From contig JAUXWS010000065.1 in assembly GCA_030685015.1 (NCBI GenBank), positions 1 to 11,323 of the forward strand: a stretch of 11,323 nt of DNA, read 5' to 3'. The notes below the pieces were generated by a model that was not told the origin of the DNA, made no database searches, and worked only from the letters and a program-made list of their open reading frames with translations. Within the stretch, counting starts at the first letter, position 1, and each line of letters opens with the position of its first letter. Positions 119 to 11,323 of the stretch are shown in pieces. This stretch comes from a bacterium. Lineage in GTDB: Bacteria; CAIWAD01. Made by a program: the position numbers and the translations under genes.

Positions 119-206
119 CTATGACATCAATTGCATCGTGGACGGCGGCGTGAAGCTCTACCGCGTGACCACCATACATAACTGGTTGAAGGATCGGATG
201 ACTTCG
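119..206 (+). pseudogene. Possible 3' remnant of a gene cut by the left IS
   Basis: Directly beyond the IS tip one frame has strong G/C third positions and reads YDINCIVDGGVKLYRVTT and onward. It has no start codon of its own, and its 5' part would lie beyond the IS. A terminator-like hairpin follows at 207-247, suggesting a rightward gene ended here. This frame, however, has no stop before the hairpin, while the other two forward frames have stops at 179-181 and 187-189. A small frameshift in a decaying 3' end would explain this. I do not recognise the family; the tail loosely resembles the ends of secreted beta-sandwich proteins. A chance open frame remains possible. Confidence 0.3.
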
Positions 207-247
207 GCGGCCGGTTCCCTGCCCTTGGGGAGCCGGCCGCTGCTTTT
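207..247 (+). terminator. Rho-independent-type terminator
   Basis: The stem GCGGCCGG (207-214) pairs with CCGGCCGC (233-240). An inner TCCC (216-219) can pair with GGGA (228-231). The run TGCTTTT follows at 241-247. It would end rightward transcription from the gene remnant at 119-206. The T run is short, so strength is uncertain. Confidence 0.55.
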
Positions 248-296: not shown

Positions 297-478
297 CGGC
301 CTTGGGGACTGTCCGCAGACTGTCCGCAGGCTGTCCGCAGACAGCCTATTCCTCGCGGCGCCACCACCTTCCGCCTCGTTGCCAGGCCCCCGCTCGCTCA
401 CGTAGTTGGTATGGTCGGATCCTCGCCCACCCGGGCGCCCATGAGCATCAGCGTCCCTGACACCTGCCCGCGGACGGC
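297..478. repeat. Direct repeat of about 190 bp, copy 1 (three 11-bp units)
   Basis: This segment recurs at 515-707. It begins with CGGCCTTGGGGACTGTCCG and contains three 11-bp units of consensus ACTGTCCGCAG (308-340), ending in the palindrome CTGTC-CGCA-GACAG. A second hairpin, CGCCC-ACCC-GGGCG, lies at 425-438, and the copy ends near CGGACGG. Outside the 11-bp tract I count about seven substitutions and one indel against copy 2. On the minus strand a frame ends in GTLMLMGARVGEDPTIPTT then a stop, but differences between the copies change residues, so coding constraint is not evident. It is probably an intergenic repeat of unknown type. Confidence 0.85.
308..340. repeat. Tandem 11-bp repeat, three units
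   Basis: Three head-to-tail units of ACTGTCCGCAG (the third begins with G) are followed by ACAGCC, so the last unit forms a short hairpin with its 3' flank. The 11-bp period is close to one helical turn, which would place any binding sites on one face of the DNA. No function is shown by the sequence. Confidence 0.85.
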
Positions 479-514
479 GGAGGCGAAAATGTCGCCCTTG
501 TGCAGCAAGGTCTT

Positions 515-707
515 CGGCCTTGGGGACTGTCCGCAGACTGTCCCCAGACTGTCCCTTGACTGTCCGCAGACAGCCTATTCCTCGCGGCGCCACCACCATC
601 CGCCTCGTTGCCAGGCCCCCGCTTGATCACGTAGTTGGTATGGGCGGATCCTCGCCCACCCGGGCGCCCGTGAGCATCAGCGTCCCTGGCACCCTGCCCG
701 TGGACGG
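515..707. repeat. Direct repeat of about 190 bp, copy 2 (four 11-bp units)
   Basis: This is the second copy of the element at 297-478, in the same orientation, with 36 bp between the copies. It is 11 bp longer because it has four 11-bp units (526-569) instead of three. The internal hairpin CGCCC-ACCC-GGGCG recurs at 653-666. The right boundary is near CCGTGGACGG. On the minus strand a frame from a GTG in the 720-755 region runs through about 40 codons to the same C-terminal peptide as copy 1 (GTLMLTGARVGED then PPIPTT and a stop). It could be a small open frame captured with the repeat. Confidence 0.85.
526..569. repeat. Tandem 11-bp repeat, four units
   Basis: The four units are ACTGTCCGCAG, ACTGTCCCCAG, ACTGTCCCTTG and ACTGTCCGCAG, followed by ACAGCC. 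The outer units match consensus exactly and the inner two have drifted. Against copy 1 this is a gain or loss of one whole unit, as expected of slippage or unequal exchange. Confidence 0.85.
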
Positions 708-841: not shown

Positions 842-1558
842 ATGATTGAGATTCACAGGCAAGAGCGGGTGGGGGACTTGGTGACCCGCCATCCCTCGCT
901 ATCCAAGTCTTTCGCCCAGGCCGGCATCGACTTCTGCTGCGGCGGCGGCCGGACCCTGGACGAGGCCTGCCGTGAGGCCGGTTGTGAACCTGAGGAGCTG
1001 CTGGCCGACCTGCGGCGGACCCTGTCGCGGGACGAGGCGCAGGAGCCGGACCTTCGCGCCATGTCCCTTACCCAATTGGTGGAGCACATCCTCGAACAGC
1101 ACCATGCCTACCTACGCACCGAGCATCCCCACCTGGACATGCTGACCGAGAAGGTGGCCCTCGTACATGGGTCCAAGGATGACCGCCTGGAAGCAGTGCG
1201 GCTGGAGTTCATCGGACTCTTCGAGGAACTCTTCGATCACATGGCGAAGGAGGAGCAGGTGCTCTTCCCCATGATCTGCCAATTGGAGGCTTCCGATCGT
1301 GCCCCGGACTTCCACTGCGGATCCCTGGCCAATCCCATCGGGCAGATGGAGCGGGAGCACGAAGCGGTGGGATCGGCCCTGCGCCGCCTGCGCGCCCTCA
1401 CCGACGGCTATCAAGCGCCCGACTGGGCCTGCAACACCTACCGTGCCATGGTGGACGGGCTTGCCCGGTTGGAGCACGACATCCATGTCCATGTGCACAA
1501 GGAGAACAACGTCCTCCATCCGGCCGCCCTGGAGCTGGAGGCCCGCCGCCAGTCCTGA
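842..1558 (+). CDS. ric: Iron-sulfur cluster repair di-iron protein (RIC/ScdA/YtfE family)
   Basis: RIC proteins are cytoplasmic non-haem di-iron proteins that help restore Fe-S clusters damaged by nitric oxide or oxidative stress. The 238-residue product matches the usual length and layout. An N-terminal ScdA domain (about 1-60) carries the FCCGGG motif (31-36), and a four-helix hemerythrin-like domain (about 75-230) follows. Candidate iron ligands are H87/H88, H133 and E137 (HxxxE), H173, and H217 and E221 (HxxxE). The start is ATG 842, giving the typical short N-terminus MIEIHRQERVGDLV. An in-frame ATG at 836 is also possible, since GAAGGAGAGGA at 825-835 can serve either. The next gene starts 278 bp downstream, so it is probably transcribed alone. 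The family call is firm; NO repair as the actual role is inferred from characterised homologues. Confidence 0.93.
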   Translation: MIEIHRQERVGDLVTRHPSLSKSFAQAGIDFCCGGGRTLDEACREAGCEPEELLADLRRTLSRDEAQEPDLRAMSLTQLVEHILEQHHAYLRTEHPHLDMLTEKVALVHGSKDDRLEAVRLEFIGLFEELFDHMAKEEQVLFPMICQLEASDRAPDFHCGSLANPIGQMEREHEAVGSALRRLRALTDGYQAPDWACNTYRAMVDGLARLEHDIHVHVHKENNVLHPAALELEARRQS

Positions 1559-1836: not shown

Positions 1837-3399
1837 ATGAAAACCTCATGGAAGATGCGCCTTGCAGCCACGCTGGGACTGTTTCTGGCCCTGGCCCTGC
1901 CGTTGCGCGCCCAGTTCCTCATCACCTCCGTCACGCCCTCCGACGGCGCGGCCGGATTGCCTGGAGCGGTGTCGGTCTGCCTGACCTTCAACGCGGCGCT
2001 GGACACCACCCAGCGCTTCACCGTGAACGGCGGCGACGAGGCCGTACTGCCCGTGCAGGCGCTCATCGCCGAACCGGAGGACGGCATCGGCCTGACCGGC
2101 TGGACCTGGAGCGGCGGCACGAACATCCTCTGCCTTGAACTCACCCTCGCCGCCGGACACGACTACTACTTCCTGGTGGATCGCGCCATCAGTGCCCAGG
2201 GAGCGGATCTGGACGCTCCCCGCGACCTGCACCTGAGCCGCCTGCCCGCCATGGGCGAGCGCCAGGTCCAGGGTCAGGTGGCGCGCCTGGACGGGGAATC
2301 GCCCTACGGCGCGGTGGTGGGTCTTTTCGACGCCCCGCCCTTCGGCGAGGAGGACGCCCAGTTGCTGGCCGCCACGGTGGTCTTGCATCCCACCGGAACC
2401 TACGCCATCCCCTATGTGCGGCCGGGCCTCTACTATCCCATCACGGCCATGGACCTGGACAGGGACGGCAACATCAGCACGGAGGCGGGCGACCTCATCG
2501 GCTACTTGGACGCCGATGAGGACGGGGAGCCGGATGCCATCGTGGTGGGCGGGGAGGACGTGGACGGCATCGACATGCTGCTCTTCTCCATGAGCCTGAG
2601 CCCCTTCCTGGCCCGTGAAGGCCTGGAGGAGGCCCGCCAGCTGGCCGCGGAGCATGCGATGGTGACCGACGCGGAGCTGCGCGCCGTGCTGAGCATCGGC
2701 GAAACGGTGGAGGACAACGGCCGCAGCATGGGCTGGGGTTACCAGTTCTATTCGCCCACCTTGACGGCCTACATCATGGTCATCCACTTCACCCATATCA
2801 GTTGGGTGGAGATCGGCGGTTCGGACTGGCCGCCCATGGCCACCCTGCCGGAGGTGTTCATCGACAGCGACGCGGCCATGTCCATCGCCCTGAACAACGG
2901 CGGCTGGGAAGTGGAGGAGAGCCTGAGCGACGACATGCGCTGGGCCATGGCCGGCAACTTCCACTGGCTCTGGCCGGAGGACCCGACCCTTCCCCTCTGG
3001 GCCGTGCACTTCGCGGGCTGGTTCAACGGGACCCAATGGCAGGACCATGTCTTCGTCATCAACGCCGTCACCGGGGAATTCCTCGGCAGCTGGGACGAGA
3101 ACTCCGCCCTGCCAACCCCCGGACCGCTCGTGCCGTCCTCACTGGTTCTGGGCGATCCCTGGCCCAACCCCTTCAATCCAATCGTCCACATTCCCTTTGA
3201 GTTGACCAGTCCGGGAGACGTGCATCTCACCGTGCACAACCTGGCGGGCCAAGTGGTGGCAGAGTTGGTGCGGGGCGTTGTCCCGTCTGGCCGGCACCAG
3301 CTCGTCTGGGACGCGGCGGGACTGGCGGGCGGCCTCTATCTGGTGAGGCTGGAGCGGGACGGGCGGGTGGAAATGCGCAAGGCCCTGCTGCTGAAGTGA
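1837..3399 (+). CDS. Secreted multidomain protein: SbsA-type Ig domain, prealbumin-like domain, type IX sorting domain
   Basis: The 520-residue product is predicted to be exported and surface-attached or released; no specific function is recognised. Residues 1-25 are a signal peptide (cleavage after LRA-25). Residues about 26-130 resemble an SbsA-type bacterial Ig-like domain (FLITSVTPSDG). Residues about 143-235 look like a prealbumin-type beta-sandwich (GTYAIPYVRPGLYYPI) with Asp-rich, calcium-loop-like segments at 206-216 and 225-233. Residues about 255-420 include a PepSY-like ending (HVFVINAVTGEFLGSW). Residues 436-520 are the FlgD-like/Por sorting domain, with PNPFNP at 443-448 and the end KALLLK. 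ATG 1837 is chosen because GGAAGGAG lies 6 nt upstream and the signal peptide starts there. It stands between gaps of 278 and 314 bp, so it is probably monocistronic. Confidence 0.85.
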   Translation: MKTSWKMRLAATLGLFLALALPLRAQFLITSVTPSDGAAGLPGAVSVCLTFNAALDTTQRFTVNGGDEAVLPVQALIAEPEDGIGLTGWTWSGGTNILCLELTLAAGHDYYFLVDRAISAQGADLDAPRDLHLSRLPAMGERQVQGQVARLDGESPYGAVVGLFDAPPFGEEDAQLLAATVVLHPTGTYAIPYVRPGLYYPITAMDLDRDGNISTEAGDLIGYLDADEDGEPDAIVVGGEDVDGIDMLLFSMSLSPFLAREGLEEARQLAAEHAMVTDAELRAVLSIGETVEDNGRSMGWGYQFYSPTLTAYIMVIHFTHISWVEIGGSDWPPMATLPEVFIDSDAAMSIALNNGGWEVEESLSDDMRWAMAGNFHWLWPEDPTLPLWAVHFAGWFNGTQWQDHVFVINAVTGEFLGSWDENSALPTPGPLVPSSLVLGDPWPNPFNPIVHIPFELTSPGDVHLTVHNLAGQVVAELVRGVVPSGRHQLVWDAAGLAGGLYLVRLERDGRVEMRKALLLK

Positions 3400-3713: not shown

Positions 3714-6461
3714 ATGCGCTCCACCCACCTGACTCCCTTGCTTTTGCTTGCTGGCTTGGTCCTGCCGTCGGCGGCCATTCCGGCGGCGGATCTGCCACCC
3801 CACATTGTGCTGGACCCGGAGGTCCGCCAGGCAGTCCCCCCCATCCACGACACGGTGGTCGAGCCGGTCCTCAAGTGGGAGGCGCATCCGCGGGTGGACA
3901 CGAACTACGCCATCGGCGACGAGGTGGTGGTGGGGACGACCCGCTACGATTACCAGCACAACGGCTCCCATGGGAAGATGATCGCCGTTTCCGCAGATGG
4001 CGTCAGTCACGGTTCTTTCATGGGCGGTGCCAACGTGGGGGCTGGGAGGCGTGTCCTGGCCTGGTGTGTGGATCCCGACCTGAGCCTCACGCCTGCCATG
4101 AATGTAATGCTGGGCAGGGCCGGCTTCACCACCCACGCCACCACCAGCGCAGCCCCGGTCAACGGGTTGCCGTCAGAATCAGGAGTGGCGGGGTGTCACA
4201 CCACCACGGGCGCCTGGTTCGGGGTGGATTTCTGGGGTTGCACCCTGGCTTTCGACCTGATCCCTGAAACGGAAAACGCCGACATCCTCTGGCCCCACAT
4301 CGCCCTGGACTACCGCGACAAGCTGCACATGGTCTGCAGCAACGGTGGGACGGTCATCCCCAACGGCGTGCACTACACGGCCTCCACCAACGGCCAGTCT
4401 TGGGACGGACCCTACGTCCTGGTGACGGACGACAGCAACACAATCAGCGCCGTGCCCGTCGCCGCCAAGCACGCGCCGGGAGCGGCCGTCCTCTTCATGG
4501 AACGCACGGCGGCGGCGCCAGACGTCTATGAAGACCAGTTCTATGGAGCCAATCAGTGGTGCCACGACATCCTGTGCTACGAGACGCGGGGCGCGACCAA
4601 CAACCTCTTCACCCGCATCGCCCAGGGGAATCCTGTCAACCTGACGCGCTTCTGGGATCCCACCTCGCCCGCGCCGTTTCGCACCACCGTGGGCGCCTTC
4701 ACCGACATGGACGCCATCTACGACAGCCAGCAAACGCCGGACCTGCACGTGGCCTTCACTGCGCCCGTGGCGCGGGTGGACAGCCTGCAATGGGTCACGC
4801 TTGACGACAATGTGGCCCATTCCCTGCCCTTCATCGACTTGTGCTACCGCAGCGCCCTTTTTCACATCAATGCCTCAACGGGGGAGTGGGGGCACATCGG
4901 GGGTTGGTTGGCCGCCGACCACGAGGGGGAGGAGATTCCCTATGTCTTCGCCGGCGTCTTCCGTGTCAAGGAGGACCGCGTGCAACTGGCCCATGACCCG
5001 GACACGGGCCACCTCTACGCGCTGTGGAATGTCTACGACCTCGCCGATCGGCGCTCCCCGGGTTCCGACGGCAAGGCGATGGCCAACGGCGAACTCTACA
5101 TGGCCTGCTCGGCGGACAATGGGCGCACTTGGGGACCGCGCATCAACATCACCAACACGCCCAGCCCCGGCTGCCTGGCTCCCGATTGCCTGAGCGAGAC
5201 CTATGCCACCCTGGCCGAGACGGTGTCCGGAGGCTGTCTGCATGTGACCTTCCTGCAGGATCGCCATGCGGGCGCATCCATCCGCGACACGGACATCAAT
5301 GACGGATCGCTGGAGACGGAGAACGACGTCTACTACCTGCGCATCCCCATCGGCGAGATTCCGCCTCCGGCGGGCGAGGCCTGGGATGCCGCCGGGCATA
5401 TCGGTCTCAGTCGCTACAACAGCCACCGCACGGTCCTTTGGACCTATGGCTCACTGAACAACGTGCTCAACTGGGACCGTGTGGAAATCCTCAACGAAGG
5501 CTGGCAGCCGCGCCACTTGGACCGTCTCTCCTTCTACCACGATCCGCTGGATCCCTTCGACAGCGCCGGTCTATGGGTGACCTGGCAGGTCAAGCCGGGG
5601 GACTTGTTGGCGGACAACGAGTGGATCACCGAGCCCGCCGACGGCGGTGACTGGGATGGCCTGCTGCCCGTCATGGACGCCCTGCAGGTCAAGCTGGGCA
5701 TCGGCCACGTGGACTACCCGCTGCGCGAGCAGGCCTTCCGCTTCGAATTCGACGACGGAACCGTGCGCACTTACCGTTACCAGTATTACGGCCTTGATGG
5801 CAACGGATCGCTGGTGGAACTCATCGACCTGGACAACCTGGACCAGTATGCGAGCCGTGTCCTCTACGAACGACAGGCCGGCTTGCCGGTCTGCCAGGTC
5901 CATCCCGGCCTGTTGGACTTCGGCCAGCTGGAGACGGGCGAGGTGGTGGAGCAGTCCTTCGTCATCACCAATGCGGGCGGCGGCCGCCTGCAGGGAGAGG
6001 TGGAGGCCGCCTGTCCCGGCGTCACCATCCTCGACGGGATGCTCGACCTGGGCGCGGAAGAGAGCCAAACGGTCACCGTGCGCGTGGAGGGCCTTGCCCC
6101 GGGCGGGCTGGTCTGCGAGCTGGCGCTACCCGGACCGTGTCCGGCGGTGGTTGTGCAAGCTGTGGTGACACAGACCGTCGCGGCGGAGGAGTCCCCCGCG
6201 GCTTTCGGACTCACGGCCATCCGTCCCAATCCCTTCAACCCGACGACAACCATCGATTTCAGCCTGCCTGAAACGAGGCACGTGCTCCTTCGCGTCTATG
6301 ACACACAGGGACGGCTGGTGGGCAAACTGGTCGATCGGCTGGTGGAGCGAGGATCCCACCAAGTCGTGTTCGATGCCGCCAGCCTGCCCAGCGGCATCTA
6401 CATCGCCCACCTCCAGGCCGGCGAGTTTCAGGAGGCGCGCACTCTCTTGCTGGTGAAATAG
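3714..6461 (+). CDS. Large secreted beta-propeller-like protein with HYDIN-type Ig domain and type IX sorting domain
   Basis: The 915-residue product is predicted to be exported; the substrate is unknown. Residues 1 to about 22-25 form a signal peptide. Residues about 30-560 look like a sialidase-type beta-propeller. A perfect Asp-box, SADNGRTW (466-473), is present, with a degenerate one, ASTNGQSW (223-230). No sialidase catalytic set is evident, so a hydrolase function should not be assumed. Residues about 570-725 are unassigned. Residues about 729-820 resemble an ASH/HYDIN Ig-like domain (LDFGQLETGE). The final part is the sorting domain, with PNPFNP at 838-843 and the end TLLLVK. ATG 3714 has GAGG 5 nt upstream and begins the signal peptide. 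A strong terminator follows at 6497, so the gene forms its own unit. Confidence 0.85.
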   Translation: MRSTHLTPLLLLAGLVLPSAAIPAADLPPHIVLDPEVRQAVPPIHDTVVEPVLKWEAHPRVDTNYAIGDEVVVGTTRYDYQHNGSHGKMIAVSADGVSHGSFMGGANVGAGRRVLAWCVDPDLSLTPAMNVMLGRAGFTTHATTSAAPVNGLPSESGVAGCHTTTGAWFGVDFWGCTLAFDLIPETENADILWPHIALDYRDKLHMVCSNGGTVIPNGVHYTASTNGQSWDGPYVLVTDDSNTISAVPVAAKHAPGAAVLFMERTAAAPDVYEDQFYGANQWCHDILCYETRGATNNLFTRIAQGNPVNLTRFWDPTSPAPFRTTVGAFTDMDAIYDSQQTPDLHVAFTAPVARVDSLQWVTLDDNVAHSLPFIDLCYRSALFHINASTGEWGHIGGWLAADHEGEEIPYVFAGVFRVKEDRVQLAHDPDTGHLYALWNVYDLADRRSPGSDGKAMANGELYMACSADNGRTWGPRINITNTPSPGCLAPDCLSETYATLAETVSGGCLHVTFLQDRHAGASIRDTDINDGSLETENDVYYLRIPIGEIPPPAGEAWDAAGHIGLSRYNSHRTVLWTYGSLNNVLNWDRVEILNEGWQPRHLDRLSFYHDPLDPFDSAGLWVTWQVKPGDLLADNEWITEPADGGDWDGLLPVMDALQVKLGIGHVDYPLREQAFRFEFDDGTVRTYRYQYYGLDGNGSLVELIDLDNLDQYASRVLYERQAGLPVCQVHPGLLDFGQLETGEVVEQSFVITNAGGGRLQGEVEAACPGVTILDGMLDLGAEESQTVTVRVEGLAPGGLVCELALPGPCPAVVVQAVVTQTVAAEESPAAFGLTAIRPNPFNPTTTIDFSLPETRHVLLRVYDTQGRLVGKLVDRLVERGSHQVVFDAASLPSGIYIAHLQAGEFQEARTLLLVK

Positions 6462-9684: not shown

Positions 9685-10548
9685 ATGAAGCACTCATGGT
9701 GTTGCGCGGCCATCCTGCTGGCGGCGGCCGTGGTGGCGCATGCCCAGGACTGCGCGTCGAGCGGGAACATCGTCTCCTTCAACCTCCTGGGGGTGGATTA
9801 CGAGATCGTGAAGGAGAACCTCGGCTGGGTCGACGCGGCCGCCTGCGCGGTGGAACGGGGCGGCCATCTGGCCGAGGTCGGCTCACAGGAGGAGCAGGAC
9901 GGGCTCTTCGCGCAGCTGAACCTGGCGGGCATCCTGCCGGAGCACACGGTGGCACCCGATGGCGGAGGCGCGTCCTATGTCTGGCTTGGCGGCAATGATC
10001 TGGCCGTCGAGGGAAGGTGGATCTGGGACGGTGACAACGATGGCGACGGCGTCCAATTCTGGGAGGGGACCGCCTCCGGCGAGCCGGTGGGCGGCCACTA
10101 CACCAACTGGGGCTTGGAGCCGGACAACTGGTCCAACCAGGACGCGCTGGGCCTGGCCATCACGGACTGGCCCTTGGGGGTGGCCGGCCAGTGGAACGAT
10201 GTGGACGCCGGCAACCTCTTGTACTACATTATCGAATTTCCGCCCGTCGGTGTCGGCGAGCGCGGCCCGGAGCTGGAACCCGCCAGGACCCTGGTCATGT
10301 CCCCCAACACGCCGAATCCCTTCAACCCGGAGACCGTCGTGCGCTGGTGGCAGCTCTCCGGTGGGGAGGCTTCCTTGACGGTCCACGATTTGGCCGGAAG
10401 GCTCGTGGTCGAGCATGGGCTTGGATACCGCCAGGCCGGCCGGCATCATCTACGACTTGATGGGAGCCAGTGGCCCGGCGGCATCTACCTGTGCGCCATC
10501 CGGGTCGGCGCCAGCTGTGACACACGCAAGATGCTGCTGCTCAAATGA
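9685..10548 (+). CDS. Secreted C-type-lectin-like protein with type IX sorting domain
   Basis: The 287-residue product is predicted to be exported and may bind sugars or other surface ligands. Residues 1-20 are a signal peptide (cleavage after AHA-20). Residues about 32-184 form a C-type lectin-like domain: GWVDAAACAVERGGHLAEV (47-65), YVWLGG (98-103), WIW (112-114), EPDN (145-148, where classical sugar-binding lectins have EPN) and WND (170-172), then YYIIEF. Asp-rich DGDNDGDG lies at 115-122. The usual last disulphide cysteine before the final strand is absent. Residues about 200-287 are the sorting domain, with PNPFNP at 210-215 and the end KMLLLK. ATG 9685 is chosen for the signal peptide; AGAGGA sits very close upstream. 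It lies 123 bp after pckA behind a hairpin and ends in its own terminator. Confidence 0.87.
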   Translation: MKHSWCCAAILLAAAVVAHAQDCASSGNIVSFNLLGVDYEIVKENLGWVDAAACAVERGGHLAEVGSQEEQDGLFAQLNLAGILPEHTVAPDGGGASYVWLGGNDLAVEGRWIWDGDNDGDGVQFWEGTASGEPVGGHYTNWGLEPDNWSNQDALGLAITDWPLGVAGQWNDVDAGNLLYYIIEFPPVGVGERGPELEPARTLVMSPNTPNPFNPETVVRWWQLSGGEASLTVHDLAGRLVVEHGLGYRQAGRHHLRLDGSQWPGGIYLCAIRVGASCDTRKMLLLK

Positions 10549-11014: not shown

Positions 11015-11197
11015 ATGAATGGCATGCGCACACTTCGAAGAGTTTGCTTGGTGGCCCTGGTGCCGGGCAGCATCTGGGCGACGGCACCCGTCAACCTGGG
11101 GACCGCCTACAGTTTCGCCGTCCTGGCCGGTTCGACCATCACCAATACGGGACCAACGATCCTGTATGGAGATCTGGGTCTAAGAGCTTATCCGTAA
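11015..11197 (+). pseudogene. DUF3494 ice-binding-like protein, N-terminal part, cut by IS
   Basis: Intact DUF3494 proteins are secreted beta-solenoids, some of which bind ice and others probably serve in adhesion. Here only the start remains. A signal peptide of about 22 residues (MNGMRTLRRVCLVALVPGSI and onward, ending near WA) is followed by APVNLGTAYSFAVLAGST and TNTGPTILYGDLG, which match the conserved opening of the domain. After residue 56 the frame enters the IS tip at 11181 and stops at TAA 11195-11197, adding only a few foreign residues. AAGGAG at 11001-11006 lies 8 nt before ATG 11015, so translation initiation looks intact. The rest of the gene would lie beyond the IS, outside the window. 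Confidence 0.8.
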
Positions 11198-11230
11198 ATA
11201 GGTTGACATTTCGATTCCGTTGAGCCAGCT

Positions 11231-11251
11231 TCCTCCATCACAACTGGAGGA
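11231..11251 (+). promoter_or_regulatory. Hairpin masking the transposase ribosome site
   Basis: TCCTCC (11231-11236) pairs with GGAGGA (11246-11251) across a 9-nt loop. The 3' arm is the transposase Shine-Dalgarno, 8 nt before ATG 11259. The same structure exists at the left copy. Such structures limit transposase translation in several known IS elements; here that role is inferred. Confidence 0.5.
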
Positions 11252-11258
11252 GTCAGCC

Positions 11259-11323
11259 ATGTCGCGATTGGCGAGCTGGGAATTGTCGGATGCCTTCTGG
11301 AGCCGAGTGGAGCCCCTGCTTCC
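11259..11323 (+). CDS. IS5-family transposase, N-terminal fragment (right copy)
   Basis: Only 21 full codons are present before the window ends, reading MSRLASWELSDAFWSRVEPL and LP. The pattern of a Leu-[ST]-Asp start, W/F-x-x-[IV], then EPLLP is characteristic of the DUF4096 N-terminal domain of IS5-family DDE transposases. ATG 11259 follows GGAGGAG by 8 nt. Catalytic residues lie outside the window. Confidence 0.8.
   Translation, partial: MSRLASWELSDAFWSRVEPLL

Follow-up and report, generated by a model that had tools for sequence, protein, structure and literature searches.

Two nearly identical stretches of DNA, each carrying a tract of 11-bp units, lie in direct tandem in a 3.6-Mb draft bacterial genome, and the question is what kind of element they are. 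The window that we analysed (11,323 bp) is one entire contig, C65, of the 105 contigs of this genome (G000). The two copies are flanked by a terminator-like hairpin at 205–242 (forward strand; one found against 0.4 expected), which may end the preceding transcription unit, and by the gene for a ScdA/RIC-type iron-sulphur repair protein at 842–1558 (forward strand; ScdA_N and hemerythrin domains), a neighbour outside the repeat. The repeat is therefore intergenic. The 11-bp tract probably belongs to a dispersed repeat family linked to a REP-associated tyrosine transposase (RAYT) encoded elsewhere in the genome, on contig C6. RAYTs (Y1 enzymes, TnpA_REP) are "domesticated" single-strand transposases.

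The rest of the contig can be described briefly. An identical 118-bp inverted repeat occupies 1–118 and 11181–11298, and a transposase frame opens at about 11259. The repeat resembles one terminus of an insertion sequence (IS), and the same IS probably borders the contig on both sides. The start of an ice-binding-like (DUF3494) gene at 11015–11197, a weak Pfam match, meets the IS end at 11181 and looks cut off by the insertion. Three secreted proteins (1837–3399, 3714–6461 and 9685–10548) carry a PNPFNP-type C-terminal domain, with Por_Secre_tail/FlgD_ig checked for the 1837–3399 protein alone; these domains suggest that the lineage has a sorting signal for type IX-like secretion.

The tract can be written (GAC-W-GTC + 4 nt)n, a 7-bp odd palindrome followed by four nucleotides, with n = 4 in copy 1 and n = 5 in copy 2. 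TRF reports period-11 arrays at 307–342 (score 65) and 525–571 (score 66). The units of array 1 (307–350, forward strand) start at 307, 318, 329 and 340 and read GACTGTCCGCA, GACTGTCCGCA, GGCTGTCCGCA and GACAGCC (heptamers GACTGTC twice, GGCTGTC and GACAGCC; spacers CGCA three times, then TATT). Array 2 (525–579, forward strand) has five units, at 525, 536, 547, 558 and 569, which read GACTGTCCGCA, GACTGTCCCCA, GACTGTCCCTT, GACTGTCCGCA and GACAGCC. The first-pass annotation had described 3 and 4 units closed by an inverted one; the counts agree with ours, but two of the four spacers in array 2 are other than CGCA. GACTGTC and its reverse complement GACAGTC differ in the central base only, and thus the "inverted" last unit, here GACAGCC, is a central-base variant.

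Dispersal within G000 was measured by pattern searches, with the reversed pattern as a control. The array pattern gave 29 forward and 8 reverse matches (37), against 1 + 1 (2) for the control. GACWGTC arrays lie at about ten loci (C5, C6, C34, C40, C45, C48, C59 twice, C65 and C80); this copy number is low and counts against a link to a RAYT. The phase is strict: TGTCC-N(k)-GACTGTC occurs 21 times at k = 3, which is the 11-bp period, and at most 3 times at every other k from 0 to 25. The helical-turn spacing noticed in the first pass is thus confirmed as a pattern, and two further unit families, described below, have it as well. At C5, C34, C40 and C48 the array closes a composite element of ~150 bp whose other part is the palindrome GGTGTCCGACCCATGGTCGGACACC. 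A genome search with this composite gave 48 matches, mostly to the palindrome part, and the palindrome is found on both sides of the RAYT gene of C19. C80 has four tandem blocks of ~150 bp, each with its own variable 11-bp tract; kinship of the window's block with the C80 block outside the array was considered and rejected, as the alignment score equals that of shuffled sequences.

G000 has five Y1_Tnp genes. REP_Tyr_transpos (NCBIfam) is the best model for four of them, at 58–80 bits with one exceeding the cut-off of 80, and the fifth looks like a plain IS200. No C-terminal HTH (Bac_DnaA_C, HTH_23 or HTH_28) was found in the five proteins, Y1_Tnp being the only match at E up to 1. The catalytic HUH and Y---NP residues are invariant in all seven aligned RAYTs. 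A loss of the catalytic Tyr (Tyr to His) in RAYTs of the C100 clade was considered and dropped, because the literature puts the class-2 catalytic Tyr in the conserved Y---NP. On C6 the RAYT frame continues into a GACWGTC array where the contig stops; the array lies in and beside the 3' end of the gene and on this side only, where the contig ends. Between C59 (at its end) and C6 (at its start), 21 bases of array are exactly shared, and from this overlap the two contigs may join. The RAYT gene of C100 has, on both sides and in the same orientation, arrays of another 11-bp unit, GCCCTGGTGTY, which is unrelated to the GACWGTC unit. GCCCTGGTGTY has 145 matches in G000 (0 for the control) and occurs at ten further loci with 6–23 units each. 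The RAYT gene of C94 (locus L048, with repeats at 492–592 and 1345–1835) is flanked by GGTCAGAC palindromes, and a 161-bp block is present in three tandem copies on one side; these are REP-like repeats within larger tandem blocks, as in the window.

Folding of the arrays as single-stranded DNA was compared with shuffled sequences. The two window tracts fold better than shuffles (z of −3.2 and −3.5), GACWGTC arrays overall give z of −3.2 to −8.2, and these arrays can form hairpins between adjacent units. In contrast, the C100-type array folds no better than shuffles (z of +1.2), and a hairpin therefore cannot be the substrate common to both array types. The GTAG foot is absent from 10 of the 11 stretches examined and incidental in the remaining one. 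What the array systems have in common is the 11-bp phase, near one turn of the duplex, and not a hairpin.

As an independent test of the link to RAYTs, we searched 84,980 species genomes for runs of three GACWGTC units in 11-bp phase and then checked array-bearing genomes for Y1 genes beside the arrays. The scan gave 67 stretches, many of them in an alphaproteobacterial MAG (JAFANP, G386) and in gut Bacteroidales MAGs. G386 has two Y1 genes. One of them, a RAYT gene of 194 aa (L252:1426–2007), has GGGGACACTCTGGTGACAGTCACGTGACTGTCACCAGAGTGTCCC upstream and a near-copy downstream; the flanking repeat consists of four units at 11-bp phase and is a perfect palindrome. With ~15 arrays in 3.6 Mb, the probability that a given gene has, by chance, an array within ~300 bp on both its sides is roughly estimated at ~1e-6. 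The predicted pairing of RAYT and array is thus seen in a lineage unrelated to that of the window. Among the Y1 genes of the other array-bearing genomes, none had arrays beside a RAYT; the flanks of the Geomonas RAYT carry a different palindrome. Twelve Bacteroidales MAGs with arrays gave no Y1_Tnp match. For REPs, gene loss with surviving repeats is suspected (PMC6006769). In Bacteroidales, an agent other than a RAYT is possible. A Paludibacteraceae MAG, Horse_feces145 (L168, L172, L176, L193, L194, L217 and L222), has many dispersed 11-bp-phased arrays, such as GACTGTCGGGT, GACGGTCACCC and similar ones, and no detectable Y1 transposase. The chromosome of Treponema putidum has eight perfect 11-bp units, GACTGTCAAAA (L211:2112–2217), and the complete genome gave no Y1_Tnp match.

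The association of RAYTs with the period was surveyed at 84 RAYT loci, where self-matches near the gene (~500 bp; 80.5 kb) were compared with those beyond 1 kb (271.5 kb). Self-matches at offset 11 numbered 27 near the RAYT and 4 far from it, a 20-fold excess, and offsets 22 and 44 showed a similar excess. Counted per locus, this excess comes from a few loci of one bacterial family: period-11 arrays of at least 3 units lie near three RAYTs (G000:C100, G001:C83 and G001:C281), with none in the far zones. Most RAYTs surveyed outside this family are without such arrays, and a further set of loci, chosen for resemblance to the C100 protein and in large part the same as the first, gave no 11-bp array outside the family. 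G001 is a sister species with its own 11-bp arrays beside its RAYTs, on both sides and in the same orientation at C281; the closest matches of the C100 protein are two G001 proteins (42–45% identity). CACCGGCACCR, the unit of G001, is matched 164 times in that genome and 0 times in G000, G002 and G003. Because it is confined to G001 among these four genomes, the unit sequence has been replaced between sister species while the period was kept. In G003, of the same family, a long GTGCCAGGGACS array lies upstream of the RAYT of C59 (L088), with a period of 12 bp and not 11 bp. The RIC gene of G003 has no GACWGTC array nearby; at 43% identity, this says little about insertion.

Three known systems can be compared with these arrays. 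In the REP/RAYT system (REPtron, with BIMEs; PMC2817692, PMC6006769, PMC8266576), as here, palindrome-bearing intergenic repeats lie beside a Y1 HUH gene and dispersed from it; the GACWGTC family adjoins such a gene on one side at C6 and on both sides at L252. BIMEs are composite elements, and here too the array is joined to the palindrome family of another RAYT. In E. coli, TnpA_REP recognises REPs as folded single strands, with the help of the GTAG foot and of a bulge in the stem, and its cleavage site is CT (PMC8266576), whereas the arrays lack this foot and consist of direct 7 + 4 bp units at 11-bp phase and in variable number, one family being without a hairpin. In the TIRYT/TIRtron system, subclass 2.1 of TnpA_REP (PMC3733652, PMC6006769), RAYTs likewise have flanking repeats without GTAG, which make up dispersed families of modest size. 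The GACWGTC arrays of C5, C34, C40, C48 and L252 start with GGGGACAG or GGGGACAC, which fits the published TIRYT motif GGGGWSAS, but the window tracts read GGGGACTG and do not fit it. Furthermore, TIRYTs have terminal inverted repeats and a C-terminal HTH, whereas at C100 and G001:C281 the arrays on the two sides of the gene point the same way, and no such HTH was found in the Y1 proteins of G000; the L252 repeats are self-complementary, and their orientation is therefore undefined. TAACTGA and other heptamer direct repeats (PMC4679880) are also intergenic, variable in unit number and patchy across phyla, but they are 7-bp head-to-tail units without spacers, in contrast to 7 + 4 bp units linked to RAYTs; the word "transposase" is absent from the text of that paper. 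No description of 11-bp arrays linked to RAYTs was found in the searchable library, which excludes subscription papers and supplements.

Since the common feature is the phase and not the hairpin, a RAYT-linked REP-like element with an altered mode of recognition is favoured. Most likely the tract is a variant of such elements, one that is phased by the helical turn and lacks the GTAG foot. The first-pass annotation had offered a REP-like or non-autonomous mobile family as one possibility for the whole ~190-bp unit. That idea holds for the 11-bp tract, which is dispersed and lies beside a RAYT in G000, and whose counterpart in the alphaproteobacterium lies on both sides of one, and fails for the ~190-bp unit, found only at the window. 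We suppose that recognition, nicking, spreading and unit turnover would be the work of the RAYT. Neighbouring units can form a short hairpin, whether or not it holds a central mismatch, and this is the type of single-stranded structure that Y1 enzymes read; the 11-bp phase sets all units on the same face of the duplex. The RAYT might then nick and join single-stranded copies of the array on the lagging strand, which would seed copies at new intergenic sites and add or lose whole units; slippage may contribute to the change in unit number.

The strongest competing view, which we regard as unlikely, is that the phased GACWGTC dyads are binding sites of a regulator or nucleoid protein, with the RAYT nearby by coincidence or acting only as a binder. 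The strict 11-bp phase, the symmetric core, the unfolded C100-type array and the Bacteroidales genomes with arrays and without a RAYT all agree with it. However, the unit sequence turns over fully between sister species and tracks the resident RAYT, an operator would not be expected to have as many as 23 units or to lie to the left and right of a RAYT, and the tandem and composite contexts resemble repeats.

The ~180-bp block that carries the tract has a different history. Copy 1 (~298–478, forward strand) and copy 2 (~516–697, forward strand) are direct copies. Self-comparison of the window gives ungapped 93% identity between 307–464 and 536–693 at a spacing of 229, while the left side, 281–336, pairs with 499–554 at a spacing of 218; the copies differ in length by one whole 11-bp unit. 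Outside the tract they have 6 differences in 121 aligned bases, in line with the few differences reported in the first pass. A genome-wide DNA search with the block gave the two window copies and one 38-bp match, which is the array alone, and plasmid DNA gave no match. It follows that the block arose by local tandem duplication, the outcome that the first-pass annotation had tied to a repeat unique to this locus; it would be a later event that carried the array along. One could go further and ascribe everything to slippage, as in long simple sequence repeats, and to local segmental duplication, without a dedicated protein. The variable unit number, the plain duplication of the block and the known occurrence in bacteria of simple repeats whose units reach 11 nt (cited in PMC4679880) speak for this reading, yet we consider it improbable: the GACWGTC unit recurs in unrelated phyla and, within G000, at about ten loci that are not linked, the dispersal and the flanking of RAYTs are left unexplained, and core and phase persist although the 4-nt spacers are degenerate.

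Least probable is a structured RNA or small protein from the ~190-bp repeat: a putative short GC-rich hairpin is indeed kept in both copies (424–440 and ~653–669), as had been noticed, and the GC-rich DNA has long open frames, but the block has no Rfam match, exists in two copies only and hence shows no covariation, the overlapping frames tested gave no Pfam match, 4–5 codons change between the copies in each of the six frames, which means no synonymous excess, and the period, 11 bp, is not divisible by 3.

As for the RAYT-linked element, we tentatively propose a class of RAYTs that have, as cognate substrate, a short-unit array phased at 11 bp and not a GTAG hairpin, with a sequence that turns over and a period that stays fixed. 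The fixed period points either to recognition of periodicity, by an oligomeric or duplex-reading RAYT complex, or to copying by the RAYT in 11-nt steps. One small bacterial family thus holds several RAYTs, each with its own array, which differ in sequence and have nearly the same 11-bp period. This set, which includes sister species whose unit families do not overlap, provides natural replicates for studying what a RAYT recognises, a question that purified proteins and a few oligonucleotides make testable. It also bears on how REP repeats are born, grow and are replaced, and on how RAYTs spread them.
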